The notes under the pieces: generated by a model
What the model was told of the DNA's origin: nothing
Seen by the model: the letters and a program-made list of their open reading frames with translations, nothing else
Database searches by the model: none
Assembly (NCBI GenBank): GCA_947173495.1
Contig: CAMWFQ010000003.1
Location: 172,577 to 236,576 of the forward strand
DNA length: 64,000 bases
Source: an uncultured Lachnospiraceae bacterium
GTDB lineage: Bacteria; Bacillota; Clostridia; Lachnospirales; Lachnospiraceae
Direction: 5' to 3'
Program-made: the position numbers and the translations under genes
In this document: positions 3,548-52,751 of the stretch, piece by piece
Position numbering within the stretch: position 1 is the first letter of the stretch
Layout of the letters: every line of letters begins with the position of its first letter

Positions 3548-4359
3548 GAGCAGAATTAAACGTATATTTTTCTATGTTCCGCATCCGTTTTAACCACAAT
3601 CTCCAATACCGGGCAGTCGTACTGGGCGCTGTTCTCAAAGGCTTTTTGTGGGCGATGATGGAGATTCTGGGTTATCTGGCAATCTACCGCACAGGCGGAG
3701 ATTCGCTGCCTATGGATTTTTCCAGTACGGTTTCTTATGTATGGGCACACCAGTCATTCATTGTCCTGTTTTCAGTGGTATTTGCAGACAGTGAGATTTA
3801 TTCCTCGATCCGAACGGGAGCCGTGGTGTATGATCTGGCCCGTCCGGTGGGACTTTACGGAAGATGGTTTTGCCAGTCGGCCTCTAACCGCTTTTCGTTC
3901 TCTCTTGTAAACTGCCTGCCGGTCCTGATTCTGGGTATTCTCATGCCCGCGCCCTTCAGGCTCGTGCTGCCTGCATCCGCCCTGCAGCTGCTTCTGTTTC
4001 TGGTATCCACGCTGCTTGCTTTCGGCGTAACGGTGGCAATTGCCATGCTGATGTATGTTTCTCTTTTCTATTTTATTTCGCAAAGGGGGATCAGGATCAT
4101 CGTCAGAATCACAACCTCCTTTTTCTCCGGAGGCGTGATTCCCCTCCTCTTTTTCCCCGGACCGGTGCGCAGGATCGCGGAGTGTCTTCCTTTTGCAGCC
4201 ATGCAGAATATGCCGCTGCAGATCTTCTGCGGCACCATCAGCGGAGCAGATGCCGTAAAGGGAATCATGTTTCAATTATTCTGGCTCTGTATATTGATTC
4301 TGGCGGGATGGGCCGCTATGGGACAGGCCACCAGAAAAGTAGTGGCGTTTGGAGGTTGA
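3544..4359 (+). CDS. ABC-2 type exporter permease, first subunit
   Basis: A 271-residue membrane protein with about six hydrophobic segments and a basic, amphipathic N-terminus containing FRIRFNHNLQYRA, as in COG4587 (ABC-2 family) permeases. It overlaps the ATPase gene by 4 bp and is followed 1 bp after its stop by the second permease. It most likely forms a heterodimeric channel with that protein. The transported compound is not evident. Confidence 0.82.
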   Translation: MRAELNVYFSMFRIRFNHNLQYRAVVLGAVLKGFLWAMMEILGYLAIYRTGGDSLPMDFSSTVSYVWAHQSFIVLFSVVFADSEIYSSIRTGAVVYDLARPVGLYGRWFCQSASNRFSFSLVNCLPVLILGILMPAPFRLVLPASALQLLLFLVSTLLAFGVTVAIAMLMYVSLFYFISQRGIRIIVRITTSFFSGGVIPLLFFPGPVRRIAECLPFAAMQNMPLQIFCGTISGADAVKGIMFQLFWLCILILAGWAAMGQATRKVVAFGG

Positions 4360-4360
4360 A

Positions 4361-5137
4361 ATGAAATTATACTGGAATTATTTTATAATGGAATTAAAAA
4401 GTCAGATGCAGTACAAAGCTTCTTTCCTTTTAACAATGATTGGACAGTTTCTGACTGCGTTCACCACCTTCTTTGGAATACAGTTTCTGTTTGACCGGAT
4501 CGATGGTGTGGATGATTTTACTTATGGGCAGGTGTTGCTGTGCTTTTCCGTCATCATGATGTCTTTTGCCATTGGTGAAATGATTGGCGGAGGACTGGCT
4601 GTCTTTCCTGATCTGTTGCGAGAAGGAAGCATGGACCGGATCCTTGTCCGTCCAAGAAGCATCCTTCTGCAGATTATCATGCCGAATATGGACTTCTCCC
4701 GTCTGGGACTTCTGGCGCAGGCCGCCATCGTGCTGGGCATTGCCATCCCTGCCAGCTCTGTTGTATGGACCTGGCAAAAGGTAGTGGTATTTATCCTGAT
4801 GATTCTCTGCGGGAGCGTGATCTTCTTCTGCCTGTTTCTTCTGGTGGCGTCGATCTCCTTTTTCACCCTGCAGTCCCTGGATTTTATGGATATCTTTACC
4901 TATGGAATGCGTGATTTCGGAAAATATCCTTTTTCTGTCTATGGAGAAAGTATCCTTATGTTTCTTACCTTTGTGATTCCGCTGGCACTGATTCAGTATT
5001 ATCCGCTGCTTTATCTGCTGGACAGGCAAAACGGCATTTTGTATATACTCTCGCCCGTTTTATCTCTCTTCTTTGTGATACCTTCCGTACTTCTTTACAA
5101 AATCGGGCTTAGTAACTACAAATCCAGCGGATCATAG
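4361..5137 (+). CDS. ABC-2 type exporter permease, second subunit (DUF990/COG3694-like)
   Basis: A 258-residue membrane protein with about six transmembrane segments. The N-terminal MELKSQMQYKASFLLTMIGQ and the LLREGSMDRILVRPRS loop are typical of the second permease in this exporter type. An in-frame TTG 12 bp further upstream is possible, but the ATG at 4361 has GGAGG 5 nt upstream (4351-4355, inside the end of the preceding gene) and is preferred. It is the last gene of the operon and is followed by a strong hairpin. Confidence 0.82.
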   Translation: MKLYWNYFIMELKSQMQYKASFLLTMIGQFLTAFTTFFGIQFLFDRIDGVDDFTYGQVLLCFSVIMMSFAIGEMIGGGLAVFPDLLREGSMDRILVRPRSILLQIIMPNMDFSRLGLLAQAAIVLGIAIPASSVVWTWQKVVVFILMILCGSVIFFCLFLLVASISFFTLQSLDFMDIFTYGMRDFGKYPFSVYGESILMFLTFVIPLALIQYYPLLYLLDRQNGILYILSPVLSLFFVIPSVLLYKIGLSNYKSSGS

Positions 5138-5168
5138 CTCCTTCGGATCATGAAGCTTATTGTAACAA

Positions 5169-5212
5169 AAGAGCGAAAGCATTGACGTAATATGCTCACT
5201 GCTTTCGCTCTT
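5169..5212. terminator. terminator hairpin between the ABC operon and the chemoreceptor gene
   Basis: AAGAGCGAAAGCA and TGCTTTCGCTCTT form a perfect 13-bp stem with an 18-nt loop. On the minus strand the stem runs into TTTTG. It separates two convergent operons and probably acts in both directions. Confidence 0.8.
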
Positions 5213-5231
5213 AACTATCTTGATGAAAAAT

Positions 5232-6167
5232 TTACTGCTCCCTGATAATGGGTGCAACCTGAGCCATCAGATTATCGATATCCTCAAACATGGCGCTTTT
5301 GGTGGTTCCCAGACGGCTTGCTCTGTTAATATGCTTTACGACTTCTCTGTACTGGCTTCTTATCTTGTCAAAAAATCCGCACAGGGTACTGAGCGCCGTT
5401 TTGGAATCTCCAATCACCTCTGATATCTGTGTATGTACTTCTGTGGCTCCCTCCGCCGCACGGGTGATCTGATCGAACATTTCGTAAGTTTCCTGTACCT
5501 TTTCAAGGCTCTGGCCCAGCGCCTTCTTTGAGCTGTCAATACTCTCGCTCAGCTTATCCGTTCCCTGCTCCACATCTTTGATATCTGAATCCACTGCCGC
5601 TGCCAGATCTTTGATCTCATCCGCAAGCTTCTTTACCTCCACAGCAACTACGGCAAATCCTTTTCCCTTTTCACCCGCCCGGGCCGCCTCAATAGATGCA
5701 TTGATCGCAAGGATATTCGTCTGATCTGCAATGGACACGATCTGATTCATCCTCTTCTTGATGTGATCCACCGATTCCTGCAGCGTCATAAAGGTACTTC
5801 CCATTTCGTCAAAATGAGTCTCTACCTCCTGAGAACTGTTTTTGAGGGTTTCTACCTCATTCTGGGCCTGAGAGACCGATTGTGAGATTTCATCCTTCAC
5901 CGTCACAAACTGTTCTGAGACATCCTTAACACTTGAAAAATTCTGTCCCATGTCTTCCAGTTTTTCCTGAAATTGTTCTGTTTCTCCCAAAACACCGTCA
6001 AAAGAACTGCCTACCAGGCTCAATTCCCACAAAGACTGTACTTCCTTCTGTACCAGATCTGTATGGTACTGTTTTAAGCTGTCCATCACATACAGAACCG
6101 GATACATTTCTTCTTCTCTGCTCTGTTTTTTCCCTGCTCCCTGTTTATTGTCTCCGCGAAACAGCAT
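5232..6167 (-). CDS. soluble methyl-accepting chemotaxis protein
   Basis: A 311-residue receptor without a signal peptide or transmembrane segment. It therefore acts in the cytoplasm. The signalling domain is recognised by the hairpin tip at residues 147-184 ([20 protein letters not shown], then [16 protein letters not shown]), which contacts CheA and CheW. Helical arms flank it. No PAS, globin or other ligand domain is recognisable in the N-terminal 60 residues, so sensing probably comes from a partner. The FIST-domain gene ends 17 bp upstream in the same operon and is the obvious candidate. ATG start with GGAG upstream. Confidence 0.9.
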
Positions 6168-46123: not shown

Positions 46124-47149
46124 TCAATTAAAGTTAAAAAAACGGCGGCAGATCTTGTATCCCTCCACAGAAATTTTTCTGCCGCTCCTGCCGGGAAGAT
46201 TGGTGCAGTTTCCCAGCAGACCATATCGCAGCTTTCGATACAGCATCCAGTCCTTTTTCTTCAGATAGTTCCAAAGCTCCTTTTTCTTCGCCAGGTTTTC
46301 CTTTGTACCTGAACGGATCAGCAAAATGGAGGATACTGTGGTGATGATATCCAGATAGCTGACCATATAATGATACATCTTCTTAACCGGAATCACCATA
46401 CTTTTCTTTTCCACCAGATAATCCATCATCATTTTGTTCACAGTGATCTGCTGGTCTATCCTTCCGATCATGATATCTTCATTTACCGACTGTCCTTCTC
46501 TGCCAATATAGTAACGATAAAAGTTTACGTCGAGATAATACATATTCTTTACATAAGGAAGGGGCTCGAACACGTAAAGGTTGTCTACATAAAAAGTGTG
46601 CTCAGGAAGACGCAGTCCGCACTGCCTGAGCAACTTTGTTCGAAAGATCACCGAATGCATCAGAATATACTGCCCTTTATGAAAATGTCTGACATCCTCC
46701 CATGTAAACAGCTCGTCCACCGGAAGCGCATGCTTATAGCGCATCACCTTGTGTCTGTTTTTGTCCGGCTTTTCATACACAAAGTTGCTGATCAGCATAT
46801 CCAGCACCTTTTCTGTACCGGTAAGATTCCTCAGCGTATCAAGGATCTGCAAATAAGCTTCTTCCTTGACCCAGTCATCACTGTCCACCACCTTGAAATA
46901 CAGGCCCGTCGCATTTTCAATCCCGGCGTTTACCGCCGATCCGTGTCCGCCGTTCTTCTTGTGTACTGCCCTGACAATTGAAGGATATCTCTCTGCATAT
47001 CGGTCTGCAATGTCTGGTGTTTCATCTGTAGAGCCGTCATCTATAATCAGAATCTCCACATCCTCTCCGCCCTTTAACAGCGAATCCACACATTTTTCCA
47101 TATATGCCGCTGAATTATAGCAGGGCACTGCAAATGACAACAGCTTCAT
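46124..47149 (-). CDS. family 2 glycosyltransferase
   Basis: A 341-residue GT-A fold glycosyltransferase. It starts with LSFAVPCYNSAAYMEKCVDS, has IIDDGSTDET for nucleotide-sugar binding and VDSDDWVKEEAYLQ as the DxD-type metal site. The C-terminal part is basic and has no clear membrane helices. It probably adds a sugar to a cell-surface glycan or lipid. The ATG at 47149 (GGAG upstream) is chosen, dropping 12 residues of a longer reading. Acceptor and donor are not known. Confidence 0.88.
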   Translation of the reverse strand: MKLLSFAVPCYNSAAYMEKCVDSLLKGGEDVEILIIDDGSTDETPDIADRYAERYPSIVRAVHKKNGGHGSAVNAGIENATGLYFKVVDSDDWVKEEAYLQILDTLRNLTGTEKVLDMLISNFVYEKPDKNRHKVMRYKHALPVDELFTWEDVRHFHKGQYILMHSVIFRTKLLRQCGLRLPEHTFYVDNLYVFEPLPYVKNMYYLDVNFYRYYIGREGQSVNEDIMIGRIDQQITVNKMMMDYLVEKKSMVIPVKKMYHYMVSYLDIITTVSSILLIRSGTKENLAKKKELWNYLKKKDWMLYRKLRYGLLGNCTNLPGRSGRKISVEGYKICRRFFNFN

Positions 47150-47264
47150 TTTGCTCTCTCCCATTCTTACTGATATTTCGGACATATGCCGTCACTTTCC
47201 TGCATATGCGCTTCTGTTTTGTCAAAATCTTTCTAAGCATATTCTAGCACTTTGTCCAAAAGAA

Positions 47265-48995
47265 TCAACTTAAGAAATTATGAAGATACGCGTTGTAAGC
47301 TGCCGGAATCGGATAGCGCTCTTTTACCTCCCGGCGTTCTACAAATATCATGTTTCCCGAGCCTTTGTTTTCCGCCAGTTCATCCACACGCACTGCATAT
47401 CCGATCATATGCCACTCCTTGTGGGTAAAAATGTGTCTGCTGTTTTCAAGGGATTCGATCTTCAGTACGGACAGACCTTCCTCTTTCAGGTAATCAATCA
47501 CCTCTTTCGGTGAACAGTGTCCCTCCAGAGAAGGGAATTCATACATTCCGGCCAGAAGCCCCTTTTTCGGCCGCTGTCTTAACGCCGCCCTGTTCTCATC
47601 ACGGATGATCAGGACCGTTTTCTCCTCTATTGTTCTGGGCTTTTTGAGCGATTTACGCGGGAATTCCAGCTCTCTTTTTTCTCTGTGAGCTATACACATA
47701 TTCTCCCATGGGCAGCTTCTGCAGTGCGGCATGCCCGTGGGTATACATACCATCGCCCCCAGCTCCATCAGTGCCTGATTGAAATCTCCCGGGCGCTCCT
47801 GCGGCATGGTCATGCGGAGTTCGCCCTCGATTTCAGTGCGAACAGCAGGTTTGGAAATATCCCTCTCATCTCCCTTCAGTCTTGACAATACCCGGAGCAC
47901 ATTGCCATCCACTGCCGGCTCCCTTTTGCCGCAGGCGATCGAGCTGACCGCTCCCGCCGTATAACTTCCGATTCCGGGAAGCTTTAACAGCTCCCCGTAG
48001 TCTTCCGGCATAACGCCGCCATAGTCTTCCATGATCCTCTGCGCTGCCTTTTTCAGATTCCTGACCCGATTGTAATAGCCAAGTCCTTCCCAGAGTTTTA
48101 AAAGCTCCTCTTCTCCGGCCTGCGCCAGGGCGGCAATGTCCGGCAGTGCCTTCGTAAAACGGTCATAATAGGGCCTGACTGCCTCCACTCTGGTCTGCTG
48201 AAGCATGATCTCCGATACCCATACATGATAAGGCGAAGGATCCTCCCGCCAGGGAAGAATCCTTCTGGAGCTGTCATACCATTCCAGCAGCGGATCCGCT
48301 GCCCGCTCCAGCGCTGAAAGCATAACCGGAACAGGATTTCGGATGATCATGGAATCGCTGGTGACACTGCAGTCATAGGCCAGAACCTTTACACCCGCTT
48401 CTCTGGCCTTCAGAAGCGCCTCTGCAAATTCCGGATGAGTCTCATTGTTTGGCGTAAAGTATCTGATATCTTCCATCTGTATCACAAAAATGACATAAGC
48501 CTTATACCCTTCTTCCAGAGCTCGGATCAGCTCCTGCACATGCTTAACGGCACGCTGGGAAGGCGCATCCGGGAACATCACCACATCCTCTTTCTCCAGT
48601 GTCACCCCTTTGACTTCAATAAATATTTTATCCTCCGGCGTCTCCACATAAAAGTCAAAACGGGAACTTCCATACTGGCTTTCCGGCTTGATCAGCAGGG
48701 CATCCGGAAACAGCGCGCCCCCGCGGATCCACTCCTCCACCGCCTTATTGGGCGCCTGAGAATCCATGTTGATAATACGGCTTCCCTTTTTGACTGCTAC
48801 CAGATCATATTCGGTACTTCTTTGGGGATTTCCGCTTCTGTTCAGATAAACTTCCGCCTCTGGCGTAAGAAGCTCTCTGCATCGCCCGGTATTCTTCACA
48901 TGAACCTTCCGACTCTCTTCTCCAAGTGTGACATAGGCTACAAATCTGTTGGGCCTGCTTTCAAACCGCCCTTTTTCTATATGGTCGTAGTTCAT
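47265..48995 (-). CDS. SfsA - MutY fusion protein
   Basis: A single 576-residue frame joins two usually separate proteins. Residues 1-225 are SfsA, a nuclease-like DNA-binding protein first linked to sugar fermentation: FVAYVTLGEESRKVHVKNTG, FDFYVETPEDKIFIEVKGVT, MFPDAPSQRAVKHVQEL. Residues about 230-576 are MutY, which removes adenine mispaired with 8-oxoguanine: the catalytic glutamate in SEIMLQQTRV (Glu262), helix-hairpin-helix KLPGIGSYTAG with Asp363 in VDGNVLRVL, the iron-sulfur cysteines 417, 425, 428 and 434, and a C-terminal recognition domain with HIFTHKEWH. The junction is seamless, so this is not a frameshift artefact within this sequence. Confidence 0.93.
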   Translation of the reverse strand: MNYDHIEKGRFESRPNRFVAYVTLGEESRKVHVKNTGRCRELLTPEAEVYLNRSGNPQRSTEYDLVAVKKGSRIINMDSQAPNKAVEEWIRGGALFPDALLIKPESQYGSSRFDFYVETPEDKIFIEVKGVTLEKEDVVMFPDAPSQRAVKHVQELIRALEEGYKAYVIFVIQMEDIRYFTPNNETHPEFAEALLKAREAGVKVLAYDCSVTSDSMIIRNPVPVMLSALERAADPLLEWYDSSRRILPWREDPSPYHVWVSEIMLQQTRVEAVRPYYDRFTKALPDIAALAQAGEEELLKLWEGLGYYNRVRNLKKAAQRIMEDYGGVMPEDYGELLKLPGIGSYTAGAVSSIACGKREPAVDGNVLRVLSRLKGDERDISKPAVRTEIEGELRMTMPQERPGDFNQALMELGAMVCIPTGMPHCRSCPWENMCIAHREKRELEFPRKSLKKPRTIEEKTVLIIRDENRAALRQRPKKGLLAGMYEFPSLEGHCSPKEVIDYLKEEGLSVLKIESLENSRHIFTHKEWHMIGYAVRVDELAENKGSGNMIFVERREVKERYPIPAAYNAYLHNFLS

Positions 48996-49175: not shown

Positions 49176-50108
49176 TCATGGGGCGCGTTCGGACTCTGTT
49201 ATCCTCTTTTGTTTATAGGGTACTCTGGCCGATGGCACTACCTCCGATGCCGGAGCTGTATGCACCGCCTGATCGTCAAAAAAGATGTGCGCTCCAAAAG
49301 CCTTCAGCACATCCCGCTTGGTAATACCTCCCAGGAAAAATGCTTCGTCAATTCGTACATTCCATGCCCGCAGCGTGCGGATCACACGTTCATGGGCCGG
49401 AGCGCTCCTTGCCGTTACCAGCGCCGTCCGTATGGGCGCCTGATCAGGTTCGAATTCCTTCTGAATGTCGGAGATCGTCTTTAAAAACTTGGCGAACGGT
49501 CCCTGCTTCAGCGGATTTTCCGCCTGAAGTCTCTCGTTCTCTTCAAAAGCCTCCAGCCCGGATTCCCTGAAGATCTGCTCCGATTCATCGGAAAACAAAA
49601 CCGCATCCCCATCAAACGCGATCCGGATCTGGGAAATCTCCTGCTGTTCATGAAATGTCCTGATCTCATCACAGCAAATAATTCCTGCCGCAATCCCGCA
49701 GTCAATGGCGGACTGCACATCCTTCTCATCCGCCGAGAGATACAGATCGGTGTGAAACGCCTCCAGATAAGGGGTGAGAGACGCCCCGCTTGCAAGCACT
49801 GCCCTTGAAATCCCCAGCCCATAATGGGCGATTGCATTGAAAACCCGAAGGGACGTATCAGGGCTGTTGTGGGACATAATGATCACCTCGACCCTTCCCT
49901 CCTGTCCGGGAATTTTGTTAATATTCAGCAGTGCTTCGATCAGTCTGAAGCCGTTTCCCGGCTTCAGGAGGTCCTTCTCATGCTCTATCTGGTACTGGCA
50001 GTACGCCTCCACTCCCTGTGAACGGAAAATTTCATTCTCTGCGGTCAGATCGAACAGCGCCCGCGAGGACACACCGATGACCAGTTTATTCTCCAGATCA
50101 TATGCCAT
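49176..50108 (-). CDS. cytosolic 5'-nucleotidase (NT5C1-like)
   Basis: A 310-residue soluble enzyme of the 5'-nucleotidase family PF06189, which dephosphorylates nucleoside monophosphates. Diagnostic segments are VIGVSSRALFDLTAENEIFR, QGVEAYCQYQIEHEKDLLKP, EVIIMSHNSPDTSLRVFNAI, and the acidic HAD-type positions in RIAFDGDAVLFSDESE and AHIFFDDQ. It lies between a DUF1653 gene and the SfsA-MutY fusion on one strand. The position beside a DNA-repair fusion suggests nucleotide-pool upkeep, which is inference. Confidence 0.85.
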   Translation of the reverse strand: MAYDLENKLVIGVSSRALFDLTAENEIFRSQGVEAYCQYQIEHEKDLLKPGNGFRLIEALLNINKIPGQEGRVEVIIMSHNSPDTSLRVFNAIAHYGLGISRAVLASGASLTPYLEAFHTDLYLSADEKDVQSAIDCGIAAGIICCDEIRTFHEQQEISQIRIAFDGDAVLFSDESEQIFRESGLEAFEENERLQAENPLKQGPFAKFLKTISDIQKEFEPDQAPIRTALVTARSAPAHERVIRTLRAWNVRIDEAFFLGGITKRDVLKAFGAHIFFDDQAVHTAPASEVVPSARVPYKQKRITESERAP

Positions 50109-50201: not shown

Positions 50202-50825
50202 CTATCTCTGCCTCAGACGGCTGCTTTTGCTTTCATATCTCTCGAAGGTCAGAAGACAGGTGCGGAGCTCCTCGAAACGCTTTTCCGTATCTCCATCCTT
50301 GATCTCCACATCGGCGGAGATCGCCATGATATTGATCATATCATCTGTAATACGCGGATGCAGCTCAGAAAGGATCCTGAGACGTTCCCTGTACGTCCGG
50401 GCATCCAGAAAGTCCAGTACCAGCGGGTCAATATTCAATTCTTCCTGTTTCTCTTCATCCTTTGCAGAAGCAGTCTCTTCCTCACGCGCGCTCTCCGGCT
50501 TCCTGGCGCAGGGCTCTTTCTGCATGTGCGCCTGCAAAGGCTCTTCTGCAGACTCACCCTCCACAGAGCACCCTCTCACAGGAGCCCCGATCAGCTCCTT
50601 CTGGAGCTCAAAGCGAGGCCGGCCGGCGTTCTCCGGATATTTCCTGCCATCTACCTGCTCCAAAAACATGGAAAGCGGCCTGGCATAGACCTTATACTCT
50701 CCGTAAAGCGCCTGATAGATCACCAGCGTTTCTTTCGTTTCACTGTGTTCTGCCAGTGTTACAACCCTGTACAGATTTCCCTTAAAATGTCTGTAAACCT
50801 GTCCGGGTGTTGGAATGTTTGACAT
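50202..50825 (-). CDS. DUF1653 domain protein
   Basis: A 207-residue soluble protein. Residues 4-70 form a DUF1653 domain (PGQVYRHFKGNLYRVVTLAE, LVIYQALYGEYKVYARPLSM). A charged, probably disordered linker runs to about 130. The C-terminal 75 residues (IDPLVLDFLDARTYRERLRI, HPRITDDMINIMAISADVEI) form a helical module often found with DUF1653 in clostridia. The function is unknown. It is first in a leftward run with the 5'-nucleotidase and SfsA-MutY genes. Confidence 0.82.
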   Translation of the reverse strand: MSNIPTPGQVYRHFKGNLYRVVTLAEHSETKETLVIYQALYGEYKVYARPLSMFLEQVDGRKYPENAGRPRFELQKELIGAPVRGCSVEGESAEEPLQAHMQKEPCARKPESAREEETASAKDEEKQEELNIDPLVLDFLDARTYRERLRILSELHPRITDDMINIMAISADVEIKDGDTEKRFEELRTCLLTFERYESKSSRLRQR

Positions 50826-51060: not shown

Positions 51061-51539
51061 AAAATTTTTCACAAACAAATTTGTGCCGGAGCGTCACAAA
51101 TTTGTTTGATGGCAGACGAAAATCTGAGATTTGCGGCTTTGCGGCAGAAAAGTTATGCCTCTTGCAATGTAAACCCCCATATTGGCATTGCAGATACCAC
51201 CATGAATGAAAGGGGTTTACATTGAACCCTCCGGGGGATGCGCACAAAATGCCAAAAGCAGGCATTTGGGCGCTGTACGGTCAGCGCAGCAAGTGCGCAG
51301 ACCTACCGTAGAGGAAGATGTCACTTCGTGACCCCATTTTCGCGCAGTTCAGCGTCGGAGCGCTGAACTTTCATAGTAACCCCCCATATCGGCATTGCAG
51401 ATACCACCATGAATGAAAGGGATTTACTTTGAGCCTCCGGCGGATGCGCAGAAAATGGGAGAGGAAGATGTCACTTCGTGACCCCATTTTCGCGCAGTTC
51501 AGCGTCGGAGCGCTGAACTTTCATAATAAACGCTCCGGA
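51061..51539. repeat. array of direct and inverted repeats upstream of DUF362
   Basis: Fills a gap of about 480 bp without genes. A 65-bp block is perfectly repeated at 51311-51375 and 51461-51525; it contains GTTCAGCG/CGCTGAAC and GTCAC/GTGAC hairpins. A second block of about 52 bp (51174-51225) recurs at 51381-51432 with a few changes. Together they make two units of about 202 and 145 bp, differing by an internal segment of about 57 bp. A perfect 12-bp inverted repeat AATGTAAACCCC/GGGGTTTACATT (51166-51223) frames the start of the first unit. Confidence 0.85.
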
Positions 51540-51551
51540 ATGGAGAATCGT

Positions 51552-52751
51552 ATGATACAGACACTTTATCATGTTCCGGAATACAAAGAAGAACTGATCT
51601 ATACGGCTGTGTGCCGGTTTATGGAGGATCTGAATATAAAAGAAGACATACGCCCCGGAATGAAGGTGGTGATCAAGCCTAATCTGATCATAGCCAAAGG
51701 CCCCGAGCTGCCTGCCACCACGCATCCTCTTGTCATCAGGGCTGTGGCCCAATGGCTGAAGGAACAGGGCGTCAGCAATATCACACTTGCTGAAAGTTCA
51801 GGCGGTCCCTACAACGGGGAATATATGAAAAATATTTACCGTGCCTGCGGCATGAAGCAGTTAGAGCCTGATCTGAAACTGAATATGGATTTTTCCGCGC
51901 GCACTGTAAACTGCAGGGAAGGATTCGCCAATCATTCCTTCCATATCATCACACCCATTCTTGAGGCCGATTATGTGATCAATATCTGCAAATTAAAGAC
52001 CCATGCCATGACAGGCTATTCCGGAGGAATCAAAAATCTCTTCGGAACCATACCCGGCCTGGAAAAGCCGCAGATGCACTACCGCTGGCCGAATCTGAAA
52101 GATTTCTCCCGGATGCTGCTGGAACTTGCCCAGACCCTGGCACCGCAGCTCACCATCATCGACGCTGTGGATGCCATGGAGGGAAACGGGCCCACCGGAG
52201 GGACTTCTCACCCGCTTCACCTTCTCCTTGCCGCCAGGGATTTTTATACACAGGATTACTTTGCCGCCGGCCTTATGGGACTTGATCCTATGAAGATCGA
52301 AATGATCCGTCAGGCTGTGGAAGCCTCTCTTGCTAAACCGGATGAAATCCGGCTTGTGGGCGATCCCCTTCCTCAGGATCTCACTCCTTTCCAGGTTCCC
52401 GATACCAAAAAACTGGATTTTTCCAGCTCTCTTCCTGGATTTCTGCAAAAACCCTTTCTGTTTTTCGCAGGGCGGATACTGAAATCCTACCCCCAGCTTA
52501 ACAGGGAGCTCTGCGTAGGATGCGGAAAATGTGCGGAGAGCTGCCCCGCCCATGTGATCACAATTGAAAAGTCAAGCAGAGGAGGCTTTTCCCTCCACTC
52601 GCTCGCGGCCCGCATGCGGCCTCAGCGGCAGCCTTCCATATGCGAGCCTGCGCAAAAAAAAGCCCATTTTAAGAGAAAGGGCTGCATTTCCTGTTTTTGC
52701 TGCCAGGAAATGTGCCCTTTGAAAGCAATCTCTGTAAAAAAAGCGCTGTAA
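51552..52751 (+). CDS. DUF362 domain protein with two [4Fe-4S] clusters
   Basis: A 399-residue soluble protein. The N-terminal DUF362 domain (about 1-300) includes VVIKPNLIIAKGPELPATTH, AESSGGPYNGEYMK and INICKLKTHAMTGYSGGIKN. Two ferredoxin motifs follow, CVGCGKCAESC (about 321) and CISCFCCQEMC (about 377), each with CxxCxxCxxxC spacing. The proteins are thought to act in redox chemistry, but the reaction is unknown. The ATG at 51552 has GGAG 6 nt upstream; upstream readings run into the repeat array. Residues about 346-368, between the two clusters, are an unusual Arg/Pro/Gln-rich insert encoded by a palindromic repeat. Confidence 0.85.
   Translation: MIQTLYHVPEYKEELIYTAVCRFMEDLNIKEDIRPGMKVVIKPNLIIAKGPELPATTHPLVIRAVAQWLKEQGVSNITLAESSGGPYNGEYMKNIYRACGMKQLEPDLKLNMDFSARTVNCREGFANHSFHIITPILEADYVINICKLKTHAMTGYSGGIKNLFGTIPGLEKPQMHYRWPNLKDFSRMLLELAQTLAPQLTIIDAVDAMEGNGPTGGTSHPLHLLLAARDFYTQDYFAAGLMGLDPMKIEMIRQAVEASLAKPDEIRLVGDPLPQDLTPFQVPDTKKLDFSSSLPGFLQKPFLFFAGRILKSYPQLNRELCVGCGKCAESCPAHVITIEKSSRGGFSLHSLAARMRPQRQPSICEPAQKKAHFKRKGCISCFCCQEMCPLKAISVKKAL
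52596..52655 (+). repeat. palindromic repeat inserted in the DUF362 frame
   Basis: GCTCGC (52601) and GCGAGC (52647) bracket an inner GGCC-CGCATGC-GGCC palindrome. The core ATGCGGCC...AGCGGCAG also occurs in the spacer at 45128-45150 and, more loosely, in copy A near 27440. The reading frame stays open across it. Confidence 0.55.

Follow-up and report, generated by a model that had tools for sequence, protein, structure and literature searches.

A conserved fusion of SfsA to the adenine glycosylase MutY in Lachnospiraceae

Introduction

Does SfsA act on the product of MutY? The question is raised by a gene in a stretch of 64,000 nucleotides (hereafter the window) from an uncultured Lachnospiraceae bacterium (assembly GCA_947173495.1, contig CAMWFQ010000003.1, positions 172,577 to 236,576 of the forward strand), in which SfsA and the adenine glycosylase MutY are encoded as one polypeptide. 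SfsA is widespread, and no settled role for it was found in the searchable literature since it was named for sugar fermentation. The chemistry of MutY is established: the enzyme removes adenine opposite 8-oxoguanine (8-oxoG) and leaves an abasic site. Fusion to a glycosylase with so well-defined a substrate narrows the question of what SfsA does to whether it acts on the product of A:8-oxoG repair.

According to PMC1189080, SfsA combines a typical PD-(D/E)XK motif with an OB fold, is kin to the YraN family by profile comparison and has its best fold-recognition template in Vsr, the endonuclease of very short patch mismatch repair. The same source cites non-specific DNA binding by the E. coli protein, and its authors allow that SfsA might act on something else. 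By the title of entry 4dav, Pyrococcus SfsA was crystallised with DNA. For the family, DNA binding counts as established. Within the open-licence PMC literature, judged by titles and the starts of abstracts, we found neither a demonstration of SfsA nuclease activity nor a description of an SfsA-MutY fusion.

Results

The fusion protein consists of SfsA, with its OB fold and PD-(D/E)XK nuclease domain, followed by a complete MutY, with its HhH-GPD domain, [4Fe-4S] cysteines and NUDIX-type 8-oxoG-reading domain. The NCBIfam model sfsA matched residues 2-221 with 179.7 bits (cut-off 126.45) and the model mutY matched residues 234-492 with 318.2 bits (cut-off 286.5), and all four Pfam domains (SfsA_N, SfsA, HhH-GPD and NUDIX_4) scored over their cut-offs. 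An earlier reading of the letters without database searches (the sequence-only reading) had placed a single SfsA-MutY polypeptide at positions 47265 to 48995, with both proteins complete and with the iron-sulfur and 8-oxoG recognition domains included. The coordinates proved right and the frame is single, the domains are present together with the cysteines and F523-T524-H525, and the strand, which that reading left unsaid, is minus.

The fusion is real and conserved; it joins two known families in a domain architecture that is new. In a protein database search in which the 7995 candidates sharing most words were scored, all of the best 120 matches covered both halves, the first being the window's own protein and the other 119 being 68-77% identical to it. 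A second search, started from another fused lineage, again gave 120 of 120 proteins covering both halves among the matches listed. The source names of these proteins mostly describe one half; two JGI records (P0066 and P0197) name both. In genomes taken one per species, 592 loci were confirmed, of which the best 80, most of them titled Lachnospiraceae, were analysed. A stop or frameshift at the junction, or absence of the fusion from close relatives, would have spoken against the sequence-only reading. The junction was inspected in other public assemblies rather than in long reads of this strain, and 79 of the 80 loci had one frame; the fusion was not absent from close relatives. An assembly or annotation artefact is almost certainly not the explanation: interrupted copies do exist in single genomes (L192 and G005), but the single frame recurs in independent assemblies, and the proteins listed match both halves without exception. 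We therefore rejected it. Records not labelled as metagenome-assembled genomes that carry the fusion include Parablautia muri D42-62, Parablautia intestinalis D8-82 and Lachnospiraceae bacterium 10-1. In L192 (positions 4001-5833), the one exception among the 80 loci, the copy is interrupted; at the G005 locus (L075, 4372-6212) the NUDIX part lies in another, overlapping frame.

The two halves meet almost without a spacer. In alignments the C-terminal residue of E. coli SfsA falls on residue 226 of the fusion, and residues 6-9 of solved MutY chains align with residues 225-228, in agreement with the roughly five residues that separate the modelled elements (Table 1) and with the linker of only a few residues that had been claimed from the sequence. 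Counted between L226 and W239, the linker has 12 residues in the window and 14 in 15 of 23 genera, and reaches 60.

Both features of the SfsA family, the SfsA_N OB domain and the SfsA RE domain, were found, and D114, E127 and K129 form the intact D...(D/E)xK motif of the PD-(D/E)XK nuclease superfamily, as assigned in PMC1189080. These three residues are invariant in 23/23 genus representatives and in 89/89 rows of the model alignment; across the 79 named loci and the reference they do not vary except for one X at position 129. Because the nuclease residues are conserved, the SfsA half is probably kept as an active nucleic-acid enzyme. The structures listed as matches to the model of the fusion were glycosylases and SfsA, with no Vsr or nuclease of similar fold, and a list so filled with glycosylases is uninformative on kinship to Vsr. 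The single-sequence model of SfsA alone reached a predicted local distance difference test (pLDDT) score of 51.8 and was left out of the fold comparison.

The MutY half has the HhH-GPD core with its Glu and Asp, the four iron-sulfur cysteines and a NUDIX-like C-terminal domain with F-[ST]-H. E262, Y345, D363, the four cysteines, H521, F523 and H525 are invariant in all three sets just given (23/23, the 79 loci with the reference, and 89/89). We take E262 and D363 to be the catalytic Glu and Asp of MutY. At position 345, presumably the site of the HhH-adjacent lyase Lys of the endonuclease III type, Tyr and not the catalytic Lys is found in all alignment rows. Variants of MutY at E43 and D144 appear in titles of PDB entries. 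The iron-sulfur spacing of the fusion is C-X7-C-X2-C-X5-C, the first gap being one residue longer than in E. coli MutY (C-X6-C). The loop that reads 8-oxoG has the residues F-T-H in the window and in most of its near relatives, and F-S-H in the majority of the other fused genera: of the 80 loci, 74 have Thr and 6 have Ser at position 524, and of the 23 genus representatives 5 have Thr and 18 have Ser. As the FSH loop of MutY reads 8-oxoG through contacts by its Ser and His (PMC10993402), Thr at 524 would retain the hydroxyl of that Ser.

The fusion was next sought in samples of increasing breadth. Among 200 Lachnospiraceae genomes, each of a different genus, it was intact in 23. A close SfsA was found in 92 genomes (94 had any SfsA, the two remote SfsA-like matches in G103 and G112 being excluded) and MutY in 147, a count from a MutY-only search that includes five fragments at contig ends or in pieces; 80 genomes had both, 12 SfsA only, 67 MutY only and 41 neither. 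The co-occurrence is positive (odds ratio 4.1, p 9e-5, kinship not being corrected for). The 80 genomes with both comprised the 23 fused in one frame, 3 in which a contig end or a split in frame interrupts the fusion, 11 in which sfsA immediately precedes mutY on the same strand, and 43 with the two genes not adjacent by listed coordinates, a class that includes draft assemblies with the genes on different contigs. Outside the family, no pair was fused or adjacent by listed coordinates, either in the order sample (76 genomes, of which 69 belong to other families and 15 of these have both genes) or in the class sample (74 genomes, of which 72 belong to other families and 13 of these have both); the two together cover 140 different genomes from other families, with 0 fusions. 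Among the matches listed for the phylum sample (398 genomes), where fused proteins sort first, the window's own was the only fused one. The three samples overlap partly, G371 and G341 being in all of them. At 19 loci with an unlinked sfsA no recurrent partner was found except an ABC-transporter-like family in 5, judged by its letters and not by a domain scan.

The history of the fused state was read from trees that omit the 3 cut or split fusions (G163, G113 and G005). On the MutY tree (61 rows) it needs 7 changes, at least 4 of them forced by well-supported branches, or 6 changes when row L116 (G060) is either scored as fused or omitted; this uncertain row, labelled unlinked, stops at the edge of its contig and could be a truncated fusion. 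One clade holds 15 fused rows (100/100), and the window type lies in another group, among which adjacent and unlinked rows are interspersed. The approximately unbiased test rejected trees that keep every fused row in one group (p-AU 3.7e-6, or 7.5e-4 if L116 is scored as fused; 1.0e-3 when the two main groups plus L116 are kept together), so that a single origin without later breakage was rejected on this tree. The SfsA tree (53 rows; 5 changes, little support, only 1 change forced by well-supported branches) has too little support to settle the matter. Where the two genes are adjacent (11 pairs), candidate Met codons for the start of mutY are found 1 to 226 bp past the sfsA stop, and in two of these pairs the genes share one reading frame. 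Because the MutY tree rejects a single fused clade, two neighbouring genes were joined, or the joined gene was broken, more than once, gains and losses being inseparable by such counts; most simply, the boundary between two operon neighbours would have been lost on more than one occasion.

In G037 (L030, L096 and L112) SfsA is absent from the locus of a mutY that belongs to the fused lineage, and a more distant sfsA (53% identical) lies on another contig. Since this mutY falls among the fused rows of the window type, the SfsA part was likely lost there.

The window's own genome (52 contigs, 97% complete) was searched for separate copies, and no sfsA or mutY other than the fusion was found in it. 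The fusion is also the only full match to itself; the second match, 32% identical over residues 278-434, is best described by the endonuclease III model (201.5 bits, cut-off 211.7) and reaches 86.5 bits with the mutY model (cut-off 286.5). The only Fpg-type match (L208, at G000:C3:116233-117009) scored 120.2 bits against a cut-off of 203.3; as a protein its best model was again Fpg, with 122.3 bits, and it may be another member of the Fpg family.

A search with E. coli SfsA limited to long proteins gave 38 matches, 10 of which were scanned with Pfam and the rest assigned from precomputed domains. None of the 38 carried MutY. Three (P0251, P0252 and P0254; 470-472 residues) are RNase III-dsrm-SfsA, in which SfsA follows a double-stranded RNA nuclease, and three (P0245, P0246 and P0253; P0246 from precomputed domains only) have a ThpR-like LigT phosphoesterase in front of SfsA; in E. 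coli, thpR directly precedes sfsA. One SfsA-T2SSE protein and one fusion of SfsA to the methyltransferase PF04445 were also found.

The gene for the fusion lies in a conserved block with the order DUF1653, 5'-nucleotidase, fusion, glycosyltransferase, PAP2 and diacylglycerol kinase (Table 1), PAP2 being present in 70 and the kinase in 57 of the 80 loci, some of which are short. This gene order agrees with the history read from the MutY tree. The fused lineage of 15 shares only PAP2 or the kinase of this block, in some members, and the glycosyltransferase also flanks mutY in several genomes in which sfsA is elsewhere or was not found. The 5'-nucleotidase gene noted earlier does adjoin the fusion. 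It is missing there in 17/80 loci, where DUF1653 is directly upstream (an 18th locus, L165, ends at the fusion), which makes it weak evidence of function, and it stays beside mutY in G037 without SfsA. A functional partnership is thus thought unlikely, and the 5'-nucleotidase looks like a syntenic bystander outside the proposed mechanism. A DUF362 protein with a C-terminal ferredoxin-like part is encoded near the fusion at 51429-52751, and in 10/80 loci, whose flanks may fall short of it.

Table 1. Features of the fusion gene and its neighbours (positions in the window)
Feature	Position	Strand	Basis
sfsA-mutY fusion gene	47265..48995	minus	one open frame from ATG to stop, 576 residues; SfsA and MutY models over cut-off
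SfsA N-terminal OB domain (PF17746), residues 14-76	48768..48956	minus	Pfam, 75.6 bits
SfsA PD-(D/E)XK nuclease domain (PF03749), residues 80-214	48354..48758	minus	Pfam, over cut-off
Stretch with predicted metal-binding D114, E127, K129	48609..48656	minus	conserved in alignments
Junction, residues 223-227	48315..48329	minus	between last SfsA strand (215-222) and first MutY helix (228-243) of structure model
MutY HhH-GPD glycosylase domain (PF00730), residues 260-390, with E262, Y345, D363	47826..48218	minus	Pfam, 78.4 bits
Iron-sulfur cysteines C417, C425, C428, C434	47694..47747	minus	identical in all alignment rows
NUDIX_4 domain (PF14815), 8-oxoG recognition, residues 460-572	47280..47618	minus	Pfam, 84.4 bits
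F523-T524-H525 loop, counterpart of MutY FSH loop	47421..47429	minus	alignments
Family 2 glycosyltransferase, downstream neighbour	46124..47185	minus	in 80/80 related loci
5'-nucleotidase (PF06189), neighbour	49176..50108	minus	beside fusion in 62/80 loci
DUF1653 protein, neighbour	50202..50825	minus	in 78/80 related loci

Discussion

The fusion could work as a two-step repair enzyme, a working model that we favour tentatively and to which we give somewhat less than an even chance. Excision of adenine from its mispair with 8-oxoG is the step predicted for the MutY half, and would leave an abasic site; the SfsA half, which is tethered to MutY and predicted to be a metal-dependent nuclease, would next cut or trim the strand so opened. 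Every step beyond the removal of adenine is inferred: SfsA would have to act as a nuclease in the cell, and its substrate would be the abasic-site product of MutY or the strand beside it. Because the mammalian MutY homologue (PMC8373069), the human one included, is product-inhibited, the tether may speed the hand-over of this product to SfsA.

Several observations weigh against such an enzyme. The halves occur apart, 12/92 SfsA genomes lacking MutY, 67/147 MutY genomes lacking a close SfsA and 43/80 genomes with both having them non-adjacent by listed coordinates, and in G037 the nucleotidase and mutY matches are about 120 bp apart with no SfsA between them. A linker that varies from 12 to 60 residues would speak against a rigidly shared active site. 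The window's genome encodes the apurinic/apyrimidinic (AP) endonucleases Nfo (292.7 bits, cut-off 129.65) and Xth (334.9 bits, cut-off 99.05); a substitute AP endonuclease would therefore not be needed, and the idea that the SfsA half replaces a missing one was rejected. The fusions to RNase III and ThpR point to RNA or to mere operon fusion; such joining of SfsA to several nucleic-acid enzymes would weaken a reading specific to MutY, yet it supports a nucleic-acid substrate. The proposal of the sequence-only reading that SfsA acts on DNA intermediates hence stands in part: the conserved fusion, the catalytic residues kept in both halves and the Pyrococcus SfsA-DNA crystal favour it, whereas its example, processing of the abasic site, finds no support in that form, in view of Nfo and Xth, the separate halves and fusions that span other pathways.

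Alternatively, two neighbours in an apparent transcription unit of Lachnospiraceae would have fused with no joint function, the boundary between them having been lost several times and each half keeping its own job, SfsA perhaps on RNA. We weight this explanation equally with the two-step enzyme. The 11 genomes with adjacent genes and short intervals would be its starting material, the fused state changed more than once on the tree, SfsA is fused elsewhere to RNase III and to ThpR, its E. coli neighbour, the halves occur apart, and sfsA-mutY adjacency is confined to Lachnospiraceae in our samples; harder to accommodate is that 23 of the genera sampled retain the fusion and that neither active site is lost in them, as is the lack of another recurrent partner at the unlinked sfsA loci. 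We regard it as improbable that the SfsA half serves as a clamp, gripping DNA with its OB fold and the surface of its nuclease fold and helping MutY to search or to stay, without cutting. DNA binding by SfsA (as cited in PMC1189080 and by the title of 4dav) and the variable linker would suit a clamp, but binding alone would not need the conserved D114, E127 and K129.

A stronger form of the two-step enzyme would make SfsA the missing strand-processing nuclease of 8-oxoG repair in Lachnospiraceae, the fusion removing adenine and then incising or resecting the daughter strand. This we consider unlikely, if less so than the clamp; were it true, the protein would be a self-contained patch-repair machine unlike any known MutY. 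Should SfsA act on the A:8-oxoG product at all, a function could be named for a broad nuclease family, together with a new coupling of base removal to strand processing; should it not, the fusion would amount to co-expression only.

Compared with known systems, the SfsA half differs from SfsA as described (TIGR00230/PF03749; E. coli 4dap, Pyrococcus SfsA-DNA 4dav) in that here it does not stand alone but runs directly into MutY. The MutY half differs from MutY (TIGR01084; MutY-DNA structures 6u7t and 4ypr) by the 226 residues of SfsA in front, by C-X7-C in place of the C-X6-C of E. coli, and by Thr for the Ser of the FSH loop. The RNase III-SfsA and ThpR-like-SfsA proteins likewise join SfsA to another nucleic-acid enzyme, but there an RNA enzyme stands ahead of SfsA whereas in the window a DNA glycosylase stands behind it. 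Endonuclease III-type glycosylase/AP lyases offer a functional likeness, since base removal and strand cutting would be coupled in one polypeptide; in the fusion, however, the cutting would come from a separate nuclease domain.
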